In this document: piece after piece, positions 9,009 to 36,694 of the stretch
How positions within the stretch are numbered: the stretch's first letter is position 1
Layout of the letters: each line of letters starts with the position of its first letter
From: Sulfobacillus thermotolerans
GTDB lineage: Bacteria > Bacillota > Sulfobacillia > Sulfobacillales > Sulfobacillaceae
DNA length: 64,000 nt
NCBI GenBank assembly: GCA_002951815.1
Contig: CP019454.1
Coordinates: 3,173,837 to 3,237,836 of the forward strand
Reading direction: 5' to 3'
Translations under genes and position numbers: made by a program
The notes under the pieces: generated by a model
Seen by the model: the letters and a program-made list of their open reading frames with translations, nothing else
Databases searched by the model: none
Told to the model about the DNA's origin: nothing

Positions 9009-9039
9009 TTGACAACGAGGCCCATCATTGGATCATAAT
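9009..9039 (+). promoter_or_regulatory. Candidate promoter of the peroxiredoxin gene
   Basis: TTGACA (9009-9014) is followed after 19 nt by CATAAT (9034-9039). The -35 is perfect but the spacing is long, which often means that an activator or a bent spacer is used. Confidence 0.4.
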
Positions 9040-9114
9040 ACAAGCAGAGGACTTCTTCCTCACGCAACGCGCATCGGCGCGTCAGCTAAGACTTCACACT
9101 TAGGAGGATACACT

Positions 9115-9651
9115 GTGGCACTCGTAGGAAAACCCGCACCATCTTTTGACATGCCGGCTATTATGCCGAACGGTGAAACCGAGCAAGTACGCCTTGAACA
9201 GTACCGCGGTAAGTGGGTTGTCCTATTCTTCTATCCCCACGACTTCACCTTTGTCTGCCCGACCGAAATCACTGCCTTATCCACCGCCTATGACCGCTTT
9301 GCGAATCTGGGCGCAGAAATCATCGGTGTCTCCACAGACAGTCCGCATGTACATAAGGCATGGATTCAGCAAAGCCCAGACAAAGGCGGCATTGGACCCA
9401 TCAACTACCCGTTAGCCAGTGACTGGACTCATGACGTCTCACGGCGTTACATGGTCTATGTTCCTGAAGAAGGTGCAGCGTACCGCGGTCTTTTCATCAT
9501 CAATCCAGACGGCGTCGTAGAATATGAAGTGGTGCACAACCTCAACGTCGGCCGTTCCGTAGATGAAACCTTGCGTGTTTTGCAAGCCATTCAAGCGGGT
9601 GGTTTGTGTCCTGTGGACTGGACCCCTGGCAAGCCCTTGCTGAAAGTCTAA
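9115..9651 (+). CDS. 2-Cys peroxiredoxin (AhpC/Tsa family)
   Basis: 178 residues with the thioredoxin fold. The peroxidatic Cys lies in FTFVCPTEI (about residue 51) and the resolving Cys in GGLCPVDWTPGKP (about residue 165), so this is a typical 2-Cys enzyme reducing peroxides in the cytoplasm. GTG 9115 follows TTAGGAGG at 7 nt; the open frame extends upstream to 9028 but without homology. It is a single gene bounded by a promoter at 9009-9039 and a terminator at 9673-9700. No dedicated reductase (AhpF) is adjacent. Confidence 0.94.
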   Translation: MALVGKPAPSFDMPAIMPNGETEQVRLEQYRGKWVVLFFYPHDFTFVCPTEITALSTAYDRFANLGAEIIGVSTDSPHVHKAWIQQSPDKGGIGPINYPLASDWTHDVSRRYMVYVPEEGAAYRGLFIINPDGVVEYEVVHNLNVGRSVDETLRVLQAIQAGGLCPVDWTPGKPLLKV

Positions 9652-13514: not shown

Positions 13515-14354
13515 TTACTCGTCTTCACTTTGGGCAAAAGCATAGCCATAACGTCCTTTTACACACAACATGCCATGCGTCACAGGATGATCTGCAGGCG
13601 ATGTGACTTTGACAATTTGGTTGTCTAGGACATGTAATTGCAGATCGCAGCCCACGCCACAATAGGAGCAAACCGTTTCGGTCGTGGTGATCTGACTTTC
13701 ATCCCACTGCCCCTCCTGCCGCAATTCGTATTCCTTTTTGCCAATCAATGCTCCTGTAGGACAGACTGCCACACAATTTCCACAAAAGACACAATCTGAC
13801 TCCGGCAGTTCGCGCCCGAAGCCCGCATCAATATGAGCATCAAACCCTCGCCCCGCCACCGCAATCGCAAATGTATTCTGCGCGTCGTCGCCACACGCTT
13901 CAACACAACGGTAGCACAAAATGCACTTGGACAAGTCCCGCACATATAAATTGTTGTCATCGCGCACCGGCTGCGCCCACGTGGCCCCCCCTGCAAAGCG
14001 ATTGGGATCCGCTCCCGATATTTGGGCCAATTCCTGAAGACTCGGCGCCAATGTCGCATCCGATGTAGATAACAGCAATTCCGCGACCACCTGGCGCGCA
14101 TTCTGAACACGCTCGCTCGCTGTCAACACTTCCATCCCATCTTCTGCGACACGCGAACATGATGCCACGAGCGTACGCGACCCTTTCAGTTCAACAACAC
14201 ACGCTCGGCAAGCATTAGCCGGCGTCAAGTTTTCATGCCAACAAAGCGTGGGCACCGGATGCTGCGCCTGTTCGCATGCGGCCCGCAAGGTCGTGCCAGG
14301 CGCTACCGTTACGACTTGGCCGTCAATGGTCAGTGATATGGATTTCTCCATCAT
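13515..14354 (-). CDS. NuoG-like ferredoxin subunit carrying the FDH [4Fe-4S] domain
   Basis: 279 residues, in order: a [2Fe-2S] ferredoxin domain (CWHENLTPANACRAC, with a later Cys), a His/Cys cluster segment, two [4Fe-4S] motifs (CILCYRCVEAC and CVFCGNCVAVCPTG), and finally the N-terminal cluster domain of molybdenum formate dehydrogenases (CSYCGVGCDLQL ... MLCVKGRYGYAF). The protein stops right there. In ordinary FdhA proteins the molybdopterin domain follows directly; here that part is the separate gene at 16043-17968. The protein would pass electrons from the active site to the NuoF-like flavin subunit. ATG 14354 follows AAGGAGG at 5 nt. The upstream frame overlaps the NuoF-like gene by 8 nt. 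Confidence 0.87.
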   Translation of the reverse strand: MMEKSISLTIDGQVVTVAPGTTLRAACEQAQHPVPTLCWHENLTPANACRACVVELKGSRTLVASCSRVAEDGMEVLTASERVQNARQVVAELLLSTSDATLAPSLQELAQISGADPNRFAGGATWAQPVRDDNNLYVRDLSKCILCYRCVEACGDDAQNTFAIAVAGRGFDAHIDAGFGRELPESDCVFCGNCVAVCPTGALIGKKEYELRQEGQWDESQITTTETVCSYCGVGCDLQLHVLDNQIVKVTSPADHPVTHGMLCVKGRYGYAFAQSEDE

Positions 14355-14373
14355 AGCCTCCTCCTTCTTCGCC

Positions 14374-15585
14374 TCAGGCATGAGGCCTCAGTTGCGGCCG
14401 TTCGATGAATGACAGGAGAGCTAAGGGCGCTGTCTGGCCTAAGCCACAAATCGAGGCATCGCGCATCGCCTGTGCTAACGCCCGCACATCGTGTACGCGA
14501 CTTTCCCACTGCTTGGCTTCCACGATCTCTAAGAGGCGGCGGGTGCCAATACGGCACGGCACACACTGGCCACAAGATTCCTCTGCGAAGAAGCGGGCAA
14601 GCCTTGCGACCACCCAGCCCAAATCCACGGTATCGTCAAAGAACATCATTGCGCCTGAGCCAATGCTGGCTCCTAGCGCTTGCAGCGACTCATAGTCCAA
14701 ATGGTGGTTCATGACCTCCTCCGGTGTCAAAAAGGTGCCAGCCGCTCCGCCAAGTAACACCGCTCCCAAGCGGCCGCTCCCTGCCACCTGTCCACCCAAG
14801 TCCGGATCGCTCACAATATCGGCCAACGGCACACCAAACGGCACTTCATAAACACCAGCACGGCGAATGTGTCCGCTTAAGGCCACTAATTTGGTGCCCG
14901 GCGTCTTTGGGGTCCCGTACTGCGTAAACCACGACACATCATGAGCGAATAACACGGCAACATTGGCCAACGTTTCCACATTTTGAATGAGGGTCGGTGA
15001 GCTCCATAGCCCTTTCACCGTCGGAAAGGGTGGTTTGACCCGCGGTTCGGGCCGCTTTCCTTCAATGCTATTAAACAAAGCCGTTTCTTCGCCGGCAATA
15101 TACGCCCCCGCTCCCCGCCGGATTTCAACATCAACCCCGCGCAGCCAATCACCCTGGCGTAAGGTTTCCAAGGCATTGGCTAAAGCCTGCTCGACCTCCC
15201 GGTATTCGCCGCGGATATAACAAAAGGCTTTTCGAGCCCCGACGGCATACGCCGCAATGAGAAGCCCCGTCAATGCGCCTAAGGGATCTTGCTCTAACAA
15301 GACCCGGTCTTTGAACGTCCCGAGTTCGCTTTCATCCGCATTCATCACCACATACTTTATCTCTCCAGGCGCTTGACGCACACTCGTCCATTTGATCCCG
15401 GTGGGGAAGGCAGCACCCCCGCGCCCCTTAATCCCACTGGCCGTGACCCATTCAATCACCGTTTCCGGGTTCATCGCCCAAATCGTGGCCAACGCCTGAT
15501 CAAAACCCCGTTCACGCATCCGCTCAGCACTTTGGGGATCTGAACGGACCTCATGGGGTGGTAAAAGGCGGCGAATTTCACCCAT
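14374..15585 (-). CDS. NuoF-like NADH-binding flavoprotein subunit of formate dehydrogenase
   Basis: 403 residues. GRGGAAFPTG and NADESELGTFKDR are the FMN/NADH-binding segments of the 51-kDa subunit family. The C-terminal ESCGQCVPCRIGT with SICGLGQ supplies the four cysteines of the N3-type [4Fe-4S] cluster. It moves electrons from the Fe-S chain to NAD+. The ATG at 15585 overlaps the stop of the NuoE-like gene by 8 nt, so the two are translationally coupled. In this operon the partner is the Sec formate dehydrogenase, which makes an NAD-dependent FDH rather than a complex I module the best reading. Confidence 0.92.
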   Translation of the reverse strand: MGEIRRLLPPHEVRSDPQSAERMRERGFDQALATIWAMNPETVIEWVTASGIKGRGGAAFPTGIKWTSVRQAPGEIKYVVMNADESELGTFKDRVLLEQDPLGALTGLLIAAYAVGARKAFCYIRGEYREVEQALANALETLRQGDWLRGVDVEIRRGAGAYIAGEETALFNSIEGKRPEPRVKPPFPTVKGLWSSPTLIQNVETLANVAVLFAHDVSWFTQYGTPKTPGTKLVALSGHIRRAGVYEVPFGVPLADIVSDPDLGGQVAGSGRLGAVLLGGAAGTFLTPEEVMNHHLDYESLQALGASIGSGAMMFFDDTVDLGWVVARLARFFAEESCGQCVPCRIGTRRLLEIVEAKQWESRVHDVRALAQAMRDASICGLGQTAPLALLSFIERPQLRPHA

Positions 15586-16018
15586 GATGCACCGCCTTCA
15601 CTGCCTCTTGCACCACTTGAGGCGTCGCCCGGCGCAAAATTTTCTGTCCAATCCATGCGGCCGGAGCATGGTCACATTGGCCCAGGCACGCCGATTCTTT
15701 CACGGTAATAGGGAGGCCCGCCGCAGCTTGTTCGGCCCAAGCCTTTAACTCCTCTGCGCCCTGCAGCGCGCACATGACATCTGTGCAAATATGCACCGGG
15801 GTTGTGCCCTCTATGTTGTCAAAGAGCGTATAAAAAGAGGCCACTCCATAGACTTCGGCATAAGCAACGCCTAACACTTCGGACACGGCGCCAATTAAGG
15901 CTGGTGTCAGTGCGTGATAATGCTCTACGACCCGCCATAATGCGGGTAGCAACTGGCCACGTTCTGCGGGCAAGTCTTTTAACAACCCCGCAACCTCTTG
16001 CACCCCTTCTGTATCCAT
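15578..16018 (-). CDS. NuoE-like [2Fe-2S] subunit of formate dehydrogenase
   Basis: 146 residues of the 24-kDa thioredoxin-like family: an N-terminal helix bundle (LLPALWRVVEHYHALTPALI, then AEVYGVASFYTLF) and the cluster ligands CTDVMC and CLGQCD. It holds the N1a-type cluster next to the FMN subunit. ATG 16018 follows GAGGTGAGG. It lies 24 nt after the catalytic subunit and overlaps the NuoF-like gene by 8 nt. Confidence 0.91.
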   Translation of the reverse strand: MDTEGVQEVAGLLKDLPAERGQLLPALWRVVEHYHALTPALIGAVSEVLGVAYAEVYGVASFYTLFDNIEGTTPVHICTDVMCALQGAEELKAWAEQAAAGLPITVKESACLGQCDHAPAAWIGQKILRRATPQVVQEAVKAVHHG

Positions 16019-16042
16019 CCGCCTCACCTCATTTACTGTAGC

Positions 16043-17968
16043 TCACGCGTGCATCGGGGCCTTGGCCACCAAGCGTTCTAGCCGCACCGCGGCGGCCTTG
16101 AATTCTGCCGTACCCGACAGCGGATCAGTCGCCTCAATCGTCAACACATTGGTCATGACCTCATCGGGGAAGTGAAACGTCATAAAAACGGTCCCCGGCA
16201 TCACAGACGACGACGCATAAGCAGGCACTTCGACCCGGCCTCGCCGTGAAATGACGGCCACCACCTCTCCATCGACAATGCCTAACGCTTTAGCATCGTG
16301 CGGATGAATTTCCATCCATTCGCCAATTTTATGGGGATGGTCATAGACATTGGACTGCACCCCCGTGTTATAAAAGGCCAGCCGACGGCCCGTGGTGAGC
16401 TGAAACGGATACTCCGGTGTCGGCATCTCCACAGGAGGCGCCCACTGCACTGGCATAAAGGGAGCTTTTACCGCCACCTCCGGCGCCCACAAGCGTTCAT
16501 GTAAAACTTTACTGCCCGGATGGTCCAGCTCCGGTACAGGCCACTGCAAGCCGTGCGCTTCCTCTAATCGTGCATACGTCATGCCCCGGAAATTCACCGT
16601 CAGTTGCCGCATCTCGTCAAATACCCCTTCGGCATCGAGATAAGGCCACGGATAACCCATCGCCCGCGCCAGTGACGTCACAATCCACAAGTCGTCTTGG
16701 GCCTGGCCCGGAGCTCTGCGGGCCGCGCGAACACGCTGCACTCTTCGTTCACTATTGGTATACGTGCCGTCGCTTTCCGCAAACGACACCCGAGCGGGGA
16801 AGACCACATCGGCTATTTCCGCCGTAGCGGTTAAAAAGATGTCTTGAACCACCAATGCACCCAGTTGGCCAAACAGCGCCCGCATGTAGCCACTGTCCGC
16901 TTCAGACTGGATCGGATTCTCTCCGATGACGTAAAGTCCACGCAGTGTTCCCTGCTCAATGGCGTCAAACATCTGCGTTTGATTCCAACCAGGCTCAGGT
17001 GCTAGCGGAACCCCCCAGGCCTTTTCAAATTTTTCTCGCACGGCCGGATCGGTGACATCTTGAAACCCTGGCAAGCGGTTGGGCAACGCCCCCATATCTC
17101 CGCCACCTTGCACGTTATTTTGCCCGCGCAAGGGATTAAGACCGGCGCCGGGGCGACCCACATTGCCACAGAGCAGCGCCAAATTGATTAAGGCGTATAC
17201 GTTGTCGACGGCATTATGATGTTCGGTAATCCCCAAAGTCCAACCAATCATCGCTGTCGGAGCTGCCGCGTAACGCCGCGCCAAGGCTTCAATGCGTTCG
17301 GGCGCAATCCCCGTAATGACAGCAGCCCGCTTAGGTGTCCAATCTGCCACACTGTCGCGAAAGGCATCAAAACCTACGGTTGCGCGCGCCACAAAGTCTT
17401 CCCGGTACAAATGCTCACGAATAATCACATGCGCCATGGCATTCAATAACGCAATATCCGATCCGATAGCAATTTGAAGATGCTCATGAGCGCGTTTAGC
17501 GGTCACCGTCTTGCGAGGATCTACGACGACCAACTCCGCTCCATTGTGCACCCCTTTCATAATGTGGTGGAAAATAATCGGATGCGCTTCAGCGGCATTG
17601 GACCCCACCAACAAAATAAAAGACGTGTGATGAAAATCTTCATAGGAACTCGTACCTGCTCCACTCCCGAATACCGTCGTGAGACCCACGACAGAAGGAG
17701 CGTGTCACGTCCGGTTGCACGAATCGATATTATGGGTTCCAAAAGCAACACGAGAAAACTTCGAAGCTAAATAGTTGAGCTCGTTTGTCGACTTGGAACA
17801 ACTGAAAACACCCAAGCCATTAGGGCCGTACCGCGTTTTGACATCCTGAAAGAGCTGGGCTGCCCGCGTTAAGGCCTCTTCCCATGTCGCTTCCCGCAGC
17901 TGCCCATTCTCGCGGATGAGAGGTTTGGTAAGCCGGGTGTGTTCAAACTTCCGGATGACCGTAGCCAT
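16043..17968 (-). CDS. fdhA: Formate dehydrogenase catalytic (molybdopterin) subunit, selenocysteine-containing
   Basis: 641 residues if the in-frame TGA at 17705-17707 is read as selenocysteine. The residues before it are GTHNIDSCNRT and those after it HAPSVVGLTTVFGSGAG. In known FDHs the catalytic Sec or Cys sits exactly there, followed by His. A SECIS-like hairpin starts right after the UGA. Further FDH marks are CGNVGRPGAGLNPLRGQNN (active-site Arg region) and MGALPNRLPG. The C-terminus has the MGD-binding domain (FQLTTGRRLAFYNTG, IHPHDAKALG). The enzyme oxidises formate to CO2. ATG 17968 has AGGAGG just upstream; the chain begins about 8 residues before RLTKP, so it lacks the usual N-terminal [4Fe-4S] domain, found instead at 13515-14354. 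Read without Sec the gene would be two fragments. Confidence 0.9.
17664..17707 (-). promoter_or_regulatory. SECIS-like element directing selenocysteine insertion at the UGA
   Basis: The UGA is at 17705-17707. Downstream GUCGUG (17687-17692) pairs with CACGAC (17676-17681) around the loop GGUCU (17682-17686), and a lower stem CUCC/GGAG brackets it. Counting the U of UGA as 1, the loop GGU lies at 22-24, the same place as the SelB-binding GGU in E. coli fdhF. This is a direct reading; function needs SelB in the genome. Confidence 0.88.
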
Positions 17969-18075
17969 GTGAACCCTCCTCTTGGAACTCATTCGTCATG
18001 CGTCTGCCTTATTCTACGCCAGAACCTTGTTATGGTACAGATCGAGCACCCCCTATTATCGTTATTTACGGAATA

Positions 18076-18525
18076 TTAAGAATTATGATGGCGACAGTCC
18101 CCCTGTCCTTGTGCCACGCGGCGCCGTAACGCTTGAAGTTCTTGAAATTGCCGCGTGACATCGCGCAACACGGCGGCGATTCCCGTCAACACGTGGTCTT
18201 CATTATAAAACGGGACTACCGTAAATTCCACCGAGATTCGGACCCCGTCTTTGCGCATCGCCGGTACCGCCAGTACGGCTCCATCTGGATAGCGCCGTTC
18301 TCCCGTCTGCACCATGTGGTCAAAGCCTGCCCAATGGCGAGCCCGCAATTTTTCCGGAATAATCAGATCGAGAGACGCCCCCACTGCCTCCTCCGCGCTA
18401 AAGCCGAAGATGTGCTGGGCTCCTCCATTCCACACCCGAATCGTTCCTTGCCCATCGGTGAAGATAACGGCATCGGCCATCGCCGTGACGAGGCCCACAC
18501 AAAATTGGGCGAAATCAAATTCCAT
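18076..18525 (-). CDS. Single PAS-domain sensor protein
   Basis: 149 residues, essentially one PAS/PAC domain: a VTAMADAVIFTDGQGTIRVW start, NGGAQHIFGFSAEEAVG, then the PAC part with RKDGVRISVEFTVVPF and TGIAAVLRDVTRQ, ending in a short coiled helix. There is no kinase, GGDEF or HTH output domain, so it must act by protein contact or simply bind a ligand or cofactor. It lies between oxalyl-CoA decarboxylase (18 nt) and the formate dehydrogenase gene (107 nt) in the same operon. AGGAGG upstream of ATG 18525 fixes the start. A role in sensing redox state or metabolites of the pathway is inference. Confidence 0.82.
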   Translation of the reverse strand: MEFDFAQFCVGLVTAMADAVIFTDGQGTIRVWNGGAQHIFGFSAEEAVGASLDLIIPEKLRARHWAGFDHMVQTGERRYPDGAVLAVPAMRKDGVRISVEFTVVPFYNEDHVLTGIAAVLRDVTRQFQELQALRRRVAQGQGDCRHHNS

Positions 18526-18543: not shown

Positions 18544-20223
18544 CTAAGCCAACCCACTTTTCGGATTCAGATTTTGAATATGGCCGCTCTCCGTCCCCGC
18601 CAACGGATCAATCACACAATTGATGAGTGCAGGACGCCTGGCTGCCAACGCTTCTTGGAGAGCTTGCATCAATGCCTGTGGATCTTCGACATGGTAGCCC
18701 TGGCCGCCAAACGCTTCAATCAACCGGTCATAGCGTGCCCCCGCCACAAATCCCGTCGGAGAGGGCGGCCCATTGCCCACATCGCCACGGTAAATTCCCC
18801 CATTATTCATCACGAGCACCACTACCGGCAGACGGTAGCGGCAAATCGTTTCTAACTCCATCCCGCTAAAACCAAAGGCGCTATCGCCTTCAATGGCTAA
18901 CACTATGCCCCCGCGCGCCGTAGCCGCCCCTACAGCATAGCCCATGCCGATGCCCATAATACCCCACGTCCCACTGTCAAGCCGCATGCGCGGGTCTTGC
19001 ATATCAATGATATTGCGCGCAAAATCCAAAGCGTTAGCGCCCTCATTGACCACATAAACCCCGGAGTGTTCCTGTAAAACCGCCCGGACCGCCCCGAGCG
19101 CGCTCGAAAAATTCATAGGGCGCGGGTCTGCGGCCAGCCTCGCCGCCATCCGTGCGATGTTTTTTTGTTTCTGCTGATGCAAAGCCTCCAACCATTCACG
19201 TCGTGCCCCGATGGGATAGTCTTCTAACGCGGCCACCAAAGCTTCCATGCTCGAATGGATATCGCCTACAACGGGCGCTTGAATCGGGCGGTTGCTATCC
19301 ATTTCGGTCGCCGCAATATCCAACTGGATATATTGGGTGTCTTCGGACCATAAAGGCCCTTTGCCATGAGATAGCAACCAGTTCAGACGCGCCCCCACAA
19401 GCATGACGACATCGGCGTGGCCAATCGCGTATGAGCGGGCGGCGGCCACTGAGAGGGGATGAGCATCTGGCAACAACCCCTTGGCCATAGACATGGGCAA
19501 GAAAGGGATGTGCGTCCGTTCGATAAAGGACCGGATCGCCGAATCGGCCTGGGCATAAGCGGCGCCCTTGCCCAGAATAATGAGAGGCCTTTGCGCCACC
19601 GACAGAAGTTGAATGGCTCGTTGCACGGCCAAAGCACTAGGCATCTGAGCCGGGGCCGGATCGACCACTTTCACTAAGCTTTTTTGCCCCGCATCCGCAT
19701 CCAAGACCGCACTCAGCGCAGCGGCAGTGAGATCCAAATAGACCCCGCCAGGCCTGCCCGATACCGCGGCGCGCACCGCGCGCGCGACTCCGATCCCAAT
19801 ATCTTCAGGTCGGTTGACGCGAAACGAAGCCTTGGCAAAAGGTTTTGCCGCGGTCATTTGGTCCAGTTCTTCATAGTCGCCTTGCTCCAGATCTACAATA
19901 GCACGGTCGCTGGATCCGCTAAGAAGAATCATAGGAAAACAGTTGGTGGTGGCATTCGCCAAAGCCACCAGCCCATTCAGAAAACCAGGCCCTGAAACCG
20001 TCAAGCACACCCCAGGTTTTTGAGTCAAATATCCCGCAATGGCCGCCGCATGGCCGGCACTTTGTTCATGGCGAAAACCAAAATAGTGTAGACCTTCTTG
20101 CTGCGCGAGGCGGGCCAAATCGGTAATGGGAATCCCCGCAACCCCATAAATCGTCTCAATCCCATTAAGCCTCAGAGCTTCTATCACTAAATGAAAGCCG
20201 TCGGTCATTGCTCCACTCATCAT
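18544..20223 (-). CDS. oxc: Oxalyl-CoA decarboxylase
   Basis: 559 residues of the ThDP-dependent family. GVAGIPITDLARLAQ and FRHEQSAGHAAAIAGYLT hold the conserved Glu that activates ThDP. The C-terminal ThDP/Mg motif is GDSAFGFSGMELE ... NNGGIY. The Y-G-V-x-G-I-P-I-T-D signature and the linkage to Frc favour oxalyl-CoA decarboxylase over acetolactate synthase. It converts oxalyl-CoA to formyl-CoA and CO2 in the cytoplasm. ATG 20223 follows AAGGGGG; the frame extends to 20262 into the frc end. It is the second gene of the frc-oxc-PAS-FDH operon. Confidence 0.93.
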   Translation of the reverse strand: MMSGAMTDGFHLVIEALRLNGIETIYGVAGIPITDLARLAQQEGLHYFGFRHEQSAGHAAAIAGYLTQKPGVCLTVSGPGFLNGLVALANATTNCFPMILLSGSSDRAIVDLEQGDYEELDQMTAAKPFAKASFRVNRPEDIGIGVARAVRAAVSGRPGGVYLDLTAAALSAVLDADAGQKSLVKVVDPAPAQMPSALAVQRAIQLLSVAQRPLIILGKGAAYAQADSAIRSFIERTHIPFLPMSMAKGLLPDAHPLSVAAARSYAIGHADVVMLVGARLNWLLSHGKGPLWSEDTQYIQLDIAATEMDSNRPIQAPVVGDIHSSMEALVAALEDYPIGARREWLEALHQQKQKNIARMAARLAADPRPMNFSSALGAVRAVLQEHSGVYVVNEGANALDFARNIIDMQDPRMRLDSGTWGIMGIGMGYAVGAATARGGIVLAIEGDSAFGFSGMELETICRYRLPVVVLVMNNGGIYRGDVGNGPPSPTGFVAGARYDRLIEAFGGQGYHVEDPQALMQALQEALAARRPALINCVIDPLAGTESGHIQNLNPKSGLA

Positions 20224-20258
20224 AATCCCCCTTCTGATGCGACTCTTCCGGGGCTCGG

Positions 20259-21509
20259 TCAAACGACCCGCGCCGCGCGCAATTTCGCAATCTCATCCGC
20301 CGAATAACCCAACTCCGTCAGCACTTCGTCGGTATGCTCACCCAACAACGGCGACTCTAAAATGGTGGGTTTGAATCCGGAAAACTTGATGGGACTGCCC
20401 ACGGTGAGATAGGGCCCACGCACTTTATGCTGAACTTCCACCACCGTGCCACTCTCGCGCAGGGCCGGATCATAAGCAATTTCCTTCATCGTCAGGACGG
20501 GTGCACAAGGGATGTCAAACTTACGGAGAATATCGACCGCTTCGAATTTTGTCTTATCCGCGAGCCATTTTTCAATGTCGGCGAAAATCTCAAAAATATG
20601 GGATTGGCGGGCTCGAGGCGTGGCATAATCCGGATCATCAATCCATTCAGGCTTGCCTATCGCCTTGCACGTCGCCGCCCACGCTTGCTCTTGAATCGTA
20701 AAATAGATATAGGCGTTGTCATCCGTCTCCCAACCCTTGCATTTTAGCACCCATCCCGGTTGCCCGCCGCCGCCGGCATTGCCGCCGCGAGGCACCACAT
20801 CGCTAAAGGTTCCATTGGGATATTGCGGATATTCTTCAAGATATCCAACGCGCTCCAAACGCTGTTGATCGCGCAATTTCACCCGCGCCAAGTTCAGTAC
20901 ACAATCTTGCATGGACACCGTGACCTTTTGCCCTTTGCCCGTTTTCATGCGGTCAATAAGCGCAGTGAGAATGCCAATAGCTAAATGCATTCCGCTGTTG
21001 CTGTCCCCCAACGCTGCACCGCTAACGGTAGGCGGCCCATCCCAAAACCCGGTCGTAGAAGCCGCGCCCCCCGCGCACTGCGCCACATTTTCATAGACCT
21101 TAAGGTCGGCGTATGGAGAGTTTTCACCAAATCCCTTGACCGACCCAAAGATCAAACGAGGATTAAGTTCTTGAATGCGTTCCCAACTAAACCCCATCCG
21201 GTCCATGGCCCCTGGCGCAAAATTCTCGACTAAAACATCGGCGCTCCGAATCAACTTTTCCAAAATCTCCCTGCCCTCAGGGCTTTTTGTGTTCAGTTCC
21301 AACGACTTTTTATTGCTGTTGAGCATGGTGAAATAAAGCGCGTCGACGTCAGGAATGTCACGCAATTGTCTTCTCGTGATATCCCCTACCCCAGGGCGCT
21401 CCACCTTAAGCACATCAGCCCCAAACCACGCTAGCAATTGCGTGCACGCAGGCCCCGCCTGCACCCCCGTAAAGTCAATCACTTTAATCCCTTCCAGCGG
21501 CAAACTCAT
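20259..21509 (-). CDS. frc: Formyl-CoA:oxalate CoA-transferase
   Basis: 416 residues, class III CoA-transferase. The catalytic Asp is in [12 protein letters not shown] (about residue 169). [13 protein letters not shown] segment matches the mobile glycine loop of Frc, and the start [22 protein letters not shown] is characteristic. It moves CoA from formyl-CoA to oxalate, giving oxalyl-CoA for Oxc and free formate for the dehydrogenase. The ATG follows GAGGAG. It is the first gene of the operon, 35 nt ahead of oxc, so the promoter should lie in 21510-21732, an AT-rich stretch. Confidence 0.95.
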
Positions 21510-23633: not shown

Positions 23634-24446
23634 CTAAAGACTTGGGGCGTCAATCCGTTCGGGATGGCTATACACACTGAGTTCTTCATCCCGAACAAAC
23701 CCTACTGCCGTAATGCCCAGCGCCTCCGCCAAGGCAATGCCTAAAGTGGTGGGGGCCGCATTGGAAATTACCGCCGGCACGCCCATTCTCGCTATTTTAA
23801 TGATGACTTCCGATGACAACCGTCCCGAAAACACCACCGCAGCCTCTCCTAAAGACAGCGCATGTAACAAGCTGTAGCCATATAGTTTATCGAGCGCGTT
23901 ATGACGCCCCACATCGGCGCGAATCGCTACTAGGCGTCCCTCCCGCCACAACCCCGCGGCATGCAAGCCTCCTGAATGCTGCATTTGTGTCCATGCACTA
24001 AACTCGTTAAACAACGACCCAAGGATGTGGGCCTTTAACCGCAAAGCGCCTTGTGGCACCGGCCTGATATCGGCATCTTCCGCAAAATAGAATCCCGTTC
24101 GTCCGCGCCCACAGCAATTGCTGATATAGCGCTTACCGCTTTGCGCCAAAAGTTCCGGCCGTAATCCTGGAATGCGCACCCACACTTGCCCCTCGGATTC
24201 TCGGATCTGACAAATGCTGATTTCTTGCGGCGCCACAATAAAGTGTTCGGCCGCCAAAAACCCGACGACCAATTCATAAAGGTCTGTCGGCGTAACGATC
24301 ATCGTCGTCCATTCCCGCCCGTTGATAAAGAGAGTGAACGCTTCCTCGCGCACAATTTCTGCTGATTCCCGCCGCCACTCTCCTTGGTCGTAATGGTCAC
24401 GGGTCAACATGCGCACAGCATCTTGCAGACGTTTTGGCACCTCCAC
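23634..24446 (-). CDS. fdhD: FdhD, sulfur carrier/transferase for formate dehydrogenase
   Basis: 270 residues of the FdhD family, which passes sulfur from a cysteine desulfurase to the molybdenum cofactor of FDH, making it active. Visible marks are the EEAFTLFINGREW strand, the NCCGRGRTGFYF active loop with a Cys pair (a CC arrangement instead of the E. coli C-x-x-C), the VGRHNALDKLYG motif and VVFSGRLSSEVIIK. GTG 24446 is chosen because GGGGGG lies 7 nt upstream and the result has normal length; the open frame extends further into the antiporter gene. Presence next to the FDH operon is functionally sensible. Confidence 0.92.
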   Translation of the reverse strand: MEVPKRLQDAVRMLTRDHYDQGEWRRESAEIVREEAFTLFINGREWTTMIVTPTDLYELVVGFLAAEHFIVAPQEISICQIRESEGQVWVRIPGLRPELLAQSGKRYISNCCGRGRTGFYFAEDADIRPVPQGALRLKAHILGSLFNEFSAWTQMQHSGGLHAAGLWREGRLVAIRADVGRHNALDKLYGYSLLHALSLGEAAVVFSGRLSSEVIIKIARMGVPAVISNAAPTTLGIALAEALGITAVGFVRDEELSVYSHPERIDAPSL

Positions 24447-24494
24447 CGGAAATCCCCCCAAGGTGACCCCACACTTCCCACCGCGCGCGAAAAC

Positions 24495-24522
24495 GGCCAG
24501 TTTCCGCGAACGAAAACTGGCC
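24495..24522 (-). terminator. Hairpin after the antiporter gene
   Basis: GGCCAGTTT (24495-24503) pairs with AAACTGGCC (24514-24522). On the minus strand a short GTTTT follows. It lies between oxlT and fdhD, so fdhD may get reduced read-through. Confidence 0.6.
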
Positions 24523-24531
24523 CAAGCATTG

Positions 24532-25929
24532 CTACTCGTGAGAAACAGCCACCGCGTCCGTATGGCGGGCAGCAACTAATCGCGCCGCTCGTTCCACCTG
24601 CTCAGCGGTTGGCCGCTTTAACAGAAACAGCGCGATTAACGAAGCCAACAGGGCCATGATGCCCGCAATGACGAAGGCCACGGGATAGCCGCCGATCCCA
24701 ACCAAAGACGCCGTGACAATACCGCCATAGAAACCGCCAACAATCTTTCCCGCATAAATTGTTCCGTAATTTTGCGTCACGTGATTTTCTCCATAATAAT
24801 CACTGGTCATCAAGGGATTGAGCACAAACAACGATCCTGAGGTTCCCCCTGCCAGCAAGGCGAAAATCACAAAGAACGGCACACTGTGCGCTTCACCTGC
24901 CAGTAGCACGAGAATCGAGGAAAACCCTAAAATCGCATAGACATAGACCATAGCGCGCTGCCGCCCAATATAGTCCGACCACAAGCCGACAAGCGGTCTA
25001 CCAATCCCATCGGTAAAGGCAAAGCCCGTTGCGCCAGCAATAATCACGACCGTTCCTAAATGCATCGCTGTGCCAAAGGGGTAATAAAAGCCCACGCCGA
25101 AGAGCGATGTCCCTGCAATTAACATGAACTCAATCAGCATCCAGAAAGGTTGGGGGGTTTTCCACATTTCCGCGGTGGTCATTTGCCGACGTGCCGGGGG
25201 ATTATGCCGCAAAGCCAGCAACTGCTTGTTCTCGGCCCATTTCAGCGGATCGACGTCTTTAGGCCACCAATTCTTGGGCGGATCTTTGAACCAGAAGCTA
25301 ATGATAATCAGACCGCCACCCAAAATCACGCCGGTCAGGTACAAAATGCTGATGAAATCGTGCGTGTTGAAGTCTGCACCATAGAGAATAATAAAGGGAA
25401 CCGCGCCATAGGCCCAGCCTCCATCCACAAACCCGGTCCGCCAGCCCTTCTTCTCCGGGTACCATTTGCTGACCGTATTGACACAAGTCGAGTACACCAA
25501 CCCCGACCCCAAGCCCCCCAGTGCTGCGTAGCCCACATAAGAAATCCAAGGCTGTACCGCATGGGCCAAGAAATAGTAGGCGGCCGCCACAAGCACACCG
25601 CCTATCAGCACCGCATACCGCGTCTTTAACAAGCCACGTTCCCTTAAAACCCCATTAAAATACGATATCCCCGCCTCAAAGAGCACATAGACGGAGTAAT
25701 TCCAAAAAGCCGTGGTCAAACTCCAATGATACTCATTCGCCACCGTCGCGGACGCAGCGCCCCATCCGTATTCCAGTGTTGAGGCCAGCATCATCCCAAT
25801 CCACGGCAAAATAATCATTACGATACGGCCTTGCCCCATAATATCGCGAGGACTTTCCCCAATCCGGTAAATGCGTCCATTTTGATCTCTGACTTCTTTG
25901 TAAGGCACCGCGTTTGCTGTCATAGACAC
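24532..25929 (-). CDS. oxlT: MFS oxalate:formate antiporter family transporter
   Basis: 465 residues with 12 predicted helices. The sequence around WGAASATVANEYHWS, GLGSGLVYSTCVNTVSKWYPEKKGWRTG and the GFAFTDGIGRPLVGLWSDYIGRQ loop is typical of the OFA subfamily. The family exchanges oxalate for formate or takes up related anions. Context (frc, oxc, FDH) supports oxalate uptake. The exchange would be electrogenic in the known case, but formate would be consumed inside here, so uptake may differ. Starts at GTG 25929 or ATG 25923 are close; GAGAGG favours the GTG. A likely promoter is at 26011-26040. Confidence 0.86.
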   Translation of the reverse strand: MSMTANAVPYKEVRDQNGRIYRIGESPRDIMGQGRIVMIILPWIGMMLASTLEYGWGAASATVANEYHWSLTTAFWNYSVYVLFEAGISYFNGVLRERGLLKTRYAVLIGGVLVAAAYYFLAHAVQPWISYVGYAALGGLGSGLVYSTCVNTVSKWYPEKKGWRTGFVDGGWAYGAVPFIILYGADFNTHDFISILYLTGVILGGGLIIISFWFKDPPKNWWPKDVDPLKWAENKQLLALRHNPPARRQMTTAEMWKTPQPFWMLIEFMLIAGTSLFGVGFYYPFGTAMHLGTVVIIAGATGFAFTDGIGRPLVGLWSDYIGRQRAMVYVYAILGFSSILVLLAGEAHSVPFFVIFALLAGGTSGSLFVLNPLMTSDYYGENHVTQNYGTIYAGKIVGGFYGGIVTASLVGIGGYPVAFVIAGIMALLASLIALFLLKRPTAEQVERAARLVAARHTDAVAVSHE

Positions 25930-36283: not shown

Positions 36284-36370
36284 GAATCCCATCCTCCCTA
36301 GTGAAGGACAAGGAGTGAGGGCTCCAGAAAAGGATACACCTTAAGAAATGAGGTGAATCGCAGTCACTGG

Positions 36371-36458
36371 CACTTTCCTCCCGCTGGCATTATCCAGATC
36401 GAGTTGAAAGGGTTAGCAACGGTCACGTTGCTTCTCAGCCTCTAGGCACCCCTAGTAC
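36371..36458 (-). ncRNA. TPP riboswitch (THI box)
   Basis: On the minus strand the conserved blocks appear in order: ACTAGGGGTGCC, GGCTGAGAAG, AACCCTTTCAAC, GATCTGGATAATGCCAG and CGGGAGGAAAG. These are the pyrimidine-sensor GCUGAGA and pyrophosphate-sensor GGAUAAUGCCAG elements of the THI box. It lies about 90 nt upstream of the YkoE-like start, so binding of thiamine pyrophosphate should shut down the transporter operon. An expression platform is not resolved, but a hairpin is possible between 36330 and 36375. Confidence 0.93.
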
Positions 36459-36694
36459 CATGTCACAAACAGTATTGTGTTTGCTTCTTGATTATAATCC
36501 ACGATCCCTCTTATGAGATCAATCCCGACAGATTTTTTACAGGGCTCAAAAATGGCTCAGCGACAAGGTCACCGTGTTTTTTAGAGTCTAGCACCGGATT
36601 GATACCCACAAGGTTCAAGAAATACTTGAAGTTCTCTGGGGTATTTCGTAACGTGAAGAGAAGAGCATAGCCCATTGACAAGGAGACTACTCAT

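Follow-up and report, generated by a model that had tools for sequence, protein, structure and literature searches.

A split selenocysteine-containing, NAD-linked formate dehydrogenase predicted beside oxalate degradation genes in Sulfobacillus thermotolerans

Results

The window, that is, the whole stretch of 64,000 nucleotides of Sulfobacillus thermotolerans DNA analysed here, carries a formate dehydrogenase (FDH) catalytic gene on its minus strand at 16043–17992. The frame is open from an ATG at 17992, through an in-frame TGA at 17705–17707, to a terminal TGA at 16043–16045. When the internal TGA is translated as selenocysteine (Sec), the product has 649 residues with Sec at residue 96, followed by H97. 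An earlier note, made from the letters of the sequence, had described the gene as open on both sides of one TGA, which was borne out, and its range of 17664–17968 lies within the gene but covers only a part of it. A domain search identified PF00384 (molybdopterin oxidoreductase) and PF01568 (the dinucleotide-binding domain) in the catalytic chain, and TIGR01591 (Fdh-alpha) matched it with 674 bits over model positions 51–671, above the equivalog cut-off of 666.25 bits. The residues around the TGA, CNRT-U-HAPSVVGL, place the codon at the active-site position, as the earlier note had read them. In the alignment U96, H97 and R289 correspond to U140, H141 and R333 of Escherichia coli FdhF. Gene callers that do not allow recoding would end this FDH at residue 95.

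The catalytic gene heads an operon whose further genes, all on the minus strand, are in the order nuoE, nuoF and nuoG-like, with these last three overlapping by a few bases. They encode a NuoE-like [2Fe-2S] subunit (15578–16027; PF01257), a NuoF-like FMN/NADH-binding subunit (14374–15585; PF01512 and PF10589) and a NuoG/HoxU-like Fe-S subunit that also carries the FDH Molybdop_Fe4S4 domain (13515–14381; PF13510 and PF04879). All the NuoE, NuoF and NuoG-like partners of an NAD-linked FDH of the FdsABG type are therefore present in the operon. The N-terminal Fe4S4 domain, which is common in TIGR01591 and not required by its cut-off, is not in the catalytic chain; it is in the gene at 13515–14381, whose product matches TIGR01591 positions 1–52 and whose Lys275 (CVKGRYG) corresponds to Lys44 of FdhF. 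We considered the catalytic frame as a truncated one and rejected this, because the missing domain is carried by the separate NuoG-like subunit.

Directly upstream of the FDH genes and on the same strand are the genes for oxalyl-CoA decarboxylase (oxc, 18544–20262; TIGR03254, 933 bits) and formyl-CoA transferase (frc, 20259–21509; TIGR03253, 723 bits), both over their cut-offs. Between oxc and the FDH genes is a gene for a PAS-domain protein (18076–18525, minus strand; PF00989), possibly a sensor. The gene for FdhD, the sulfurtransferase for FDH maturation, is close by at 23634–24575 on the minus strand (TIGR00129, over cut-off). Elsewhere in the window, an Rfam scan placed a TPP riboswitch at 36358–36463 on the minus strand (72.2 bits).

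The SECIS hairpin

A SECIS hairpin was assigned to 17662–17702 on the minus strand from conservation, folding and a sub-threshold Rfam match. Its apical helix pairs 17694–17687 with 17681–17674 over 8 bp (7 Watson-Crick and one G-U) and closes on the loop GGUCU at 17686–17682; a lower helix of seven pairs, 17702–17696 with 17668–17662, stands below it. The 6-bp core begins 15 nt from the U of the UGA, which is 12 nt after its A, and the loop GGU lies at an offset of 21 nt from that U, an offset shared with the E. coli fdhF gene of NC_000913. Thus the loop and the E. coli distance given in the earlier note are confirmed, and its spacing of 15 nt holds when counted from the U, while its 6-bp helix proved to be larger, with 8 bp.

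The hairpin by itself is suggestive and only moderately improbable. The 48-nt segment from the UGA onwards has a minimum free energy of −20.9 kcal/mol, with z = −2.4 relative to dinucleotide shuffles, a fold as stable occurs in 1.6% of 20,000 synonymous recodings, and the SECIS segment ranks fifth most extreme among 619 windows of the catalytic gene. In about 9% of the synonymous recodings, six or more base pairs still close a 5-nt loop at this site, so the view in the earlier note that chance would not give a matching SECIS was too strong. The amino-acid sequence in part dictates such a hairpin, which is therefore not near-proof when taken alone. An Rfam scan of the 64-kb window at the gathering threshold gave no SECIS; in a sensitive scan SECIS_3 aligned over its full model and in register with 17.4 bits (E 0.23), below the gathering score.

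What is decisive is the conservation among homologues. In a sample of 130 homologues, comprising 109 with Sec (UGA) and 21 with Cys, the six core pairs are kept in 97% of the former and 33% of the latter, and the GGU loop in 98% and 19%, respectively (Fisher tests uncorrected for relatedness, p about 3e-11 for the hairpin and about 1e-15 for GGU). Moreover, several paired positions covary, for example with CG/GC at offsets 17–29 and GC/CG/AT/TA at offsets 20–26.

Conservation of the codon and of the split gene order

In each of the 80 nearest homologues in genome_contigs, which reach down to 55% identity, TGA stands at the codon equivalent to 17705–17707; this codon and the one after it correspond to Sec140-His141 in E. 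coli FdhF. These homologues come from Sulfobacillus, which supplies the nearest named ones, and from Planctomycetota, Gemmatimonadota, Actinobacteria and Chloroflexi. Among genomes of the same phylum, nearly all of the best matches also have an internal TGA.

Within the clade of 55–84% identity, every locus with a detected second module has the split gene order (the module was not detected in some short loci, and two loci, L108 and L109, at about 57% identity, have long upstream extensions). In most split loci the second module is about 3.5–4 kb downstream of the catalytic gene. In the clade at 49% identity or less, most chains are fused and have about 900 residues. We tentatively suggest, at somewhat less than even odds, that the split-type Sec NAD-FDH is a distinct and widespread clade, apparently always with Sec and with a division uncharacterised as such, in Sulfobacillus, Actinobacteria, Gemmatimonadota, Planctomycetota, Chloroflexi and others.

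Selenocysteine machinery and other genes of the genome

The earlier note had proposed a search for selA, selB, selC (tRNA-Sec) and selD as a check, and all four were found in the genome (3,317,203 bp, one contig); selB and selC, whose absence it held would refute its reading, are both present. SelA is encoded, as is SelB, which is over the TIGR00475 cut-off; tRNA-Sec with the anticodon TCA (UCA) lies at C1:1824194-1824285. SelD is encoded at L011:1402-2535 on the minus strand (G000:C1:198204-199139), and its gene, too, is interrupted at residue 44 by an in-frame TGA (TSKSG-U-GCK), with a strong 9-bp hairpin behind it. An acidophilic Sulfobacillus is thereby shown to own everything needed for reading UGA as selenocysteine. 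Together with the conserved TGA and SECIS, these genes support the earlier proposal that the lineage makes selenoproteins, which it probably does. SelB is also encoded in 34 of the 41 related genomes searched. About 7 kb from selB there is a RuBisCO large-subunit-like gene, identified by eye from the sequence (L017:4386-5828, minus strand).

Selenoproteins of the genome were sought by targeted searches only. Other molybdopterin oxidoreductase homologues in the genome carry Cys at the aligned position and are not interrupted by a stop. The same holds for a second, fused FDH-like protein of 1000 aa (L146:5416-8418, plus strand; G000:C1:2738369-2740228). A redoxin-like frame (L147/L170; G000:C1:151431-151805, minus strand) has an in-frame TGA ending at 151700 within FFYEADT-U-SACLQQ, a UxxC motif; its hairpin has the loop GGUCG, and the TGA is also found in homologues of eight further genomes of the class. 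This gene may be frameshifted in S. thermotolerans, as its likely membrane-anchor part is in another frame. The UxxC redoxin selenoprotein family is already among those listed in PMC13188914.

The window also encodes a peroxiredoxin at 9028–9651 on the plus strand, of 178 aa if the start is the GTG of VALVGK. It carries Cys, in FTFVCPTE, its frame lacks TGA, and a 166-aa stretch scores far under the NCBIfam PrxU cut-off. The S. thermotolerans proteome paper (PMC7409299) includes among its proteins BXT84_15685, a peroxiredoxin of 178 aa, and mentions a selenocysteine-containing PrxU; if BXT84_15685 is the gene at 9028–9651, its residue is Cys in our sequence. The term "formate" is absent from that paper, and protein-level evidence for Sec or FDH activity was not found.

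Discussion

The TGA at 17705–17707 is very probably a genuine selenocysteine codon of formate dehydrogenase. The same codon might be taken for an ordinary stop, leaving a pseudogene or two polypeptides, and a 548-aa frame does open from a GTG at 17689, soon after the TGA. This is highly improbable, since the TGA stands exactly at the catalytic Sec/Cys position in a genome with the full Sec machinery, and the protein beyond it stays conserved in the homologues that share the codon. Even more remote is a sequencing error that turned TGC or TGT into TGA: the codon is TGA in all independent isolates and metagenome-assembled genomes, by which an error is already refuted, and the SECIS loop, absent from most Cys homologues, is retained. 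The presence of TGA in all the nearest homologues excludes both an error and a private mutation, and on this conservation the pseudogene, two-frame and sequencing-error readings were all rejected.

A less drastic alternative concerns the role of the enzyme. Metal-dependent FDHs are able to work in either direction, so a Sec-containing FDH at this locus could be an NADH-linked CO2 reductase, or could use formate from elsewhere than oxalate; NAD coupling and oxalate supply are themselves read from the neighbouring genes only. We regard such a role as unlikely, given the adjacent frc and oxc, the nearby fdhD and the published oxalate degradation genes of the strain, including oxlT (PMC6803676). 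From this neighbourhood, the FDH most likely consumes formate released from oxalate.

With a probability of about 97%, the locus encodes a Sec-containing, NAD-linked, cytoplasmic FDH whose UGA is decoded via SelB and SECIS; it would most likely oxidise formate from oxalate to CO2. The UGA would be decoded by Sec-tRNA(Sec), brought by SelB bound to the hairpin just downstream. The Sec would ligate the Mo or W of the bis-MGD cofactor, where formate would be oxidised to CO2. The domains suggest that electrons would then travel via the Fe4S4 cluster on the separate NuoG-like subunit to NuoF/NuoE, with NAD+ being reduced. The predicted route would lead from oxalate through oxalyl-CoA, formyl-CoA and formate to CO2 and NADH.

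The earlier note had thought selenoproteins unusual for this group, which they are not, given the SelB count among relatives and the Sec formate dehydrogenases, with NuoEFG genes next to them, that a 2014 paper (PMC4378227) reports for all Sulfobacillus genomes. The paper also proposed NAD coupling of the enzyme for the genus, and PMC13188914 describes FdhA as the selenoprotein family with the widest distribution in bacteria. The finding of a Sec FDH is therefore correct but known already in kind and in genus, and because trait and enzyme type were known, its value is mainly one of correct annotation. The split architecture of the FDH and the Sec-redoxin are modest additions.

Compared with the putative cytoplasmic Sec FDHs of PMC4378227, the present enzyme shares the genus, the Sec catalytic subunit and the NuoEFG-like neighbours; the Sec machinery, the SECIS and the division of the alpha subunit, which do not figure in the FDH section of that paper, are given here for the S. 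thermotolerans strain. With E. coli FdhF (FDH-H, 1aa6/1fdo) it shares the UGA site, the distance of the GGU loop and the conserved His and Arg. However, FdhF is a single chain including the Fe4S4 domain and is part of formate hydrogenlyase, whereas the S. thermotolerans FDH is split and belongs to a predicted NAD-linked complex. The FdsA-type NAD-linked FDH (6tg9) has the same catalytic domain and NuoE/F/G-like chain to NAD, but its alpha subunit is fused, while in S. thermotolerans the FdsA-like chain is divided over two genes.
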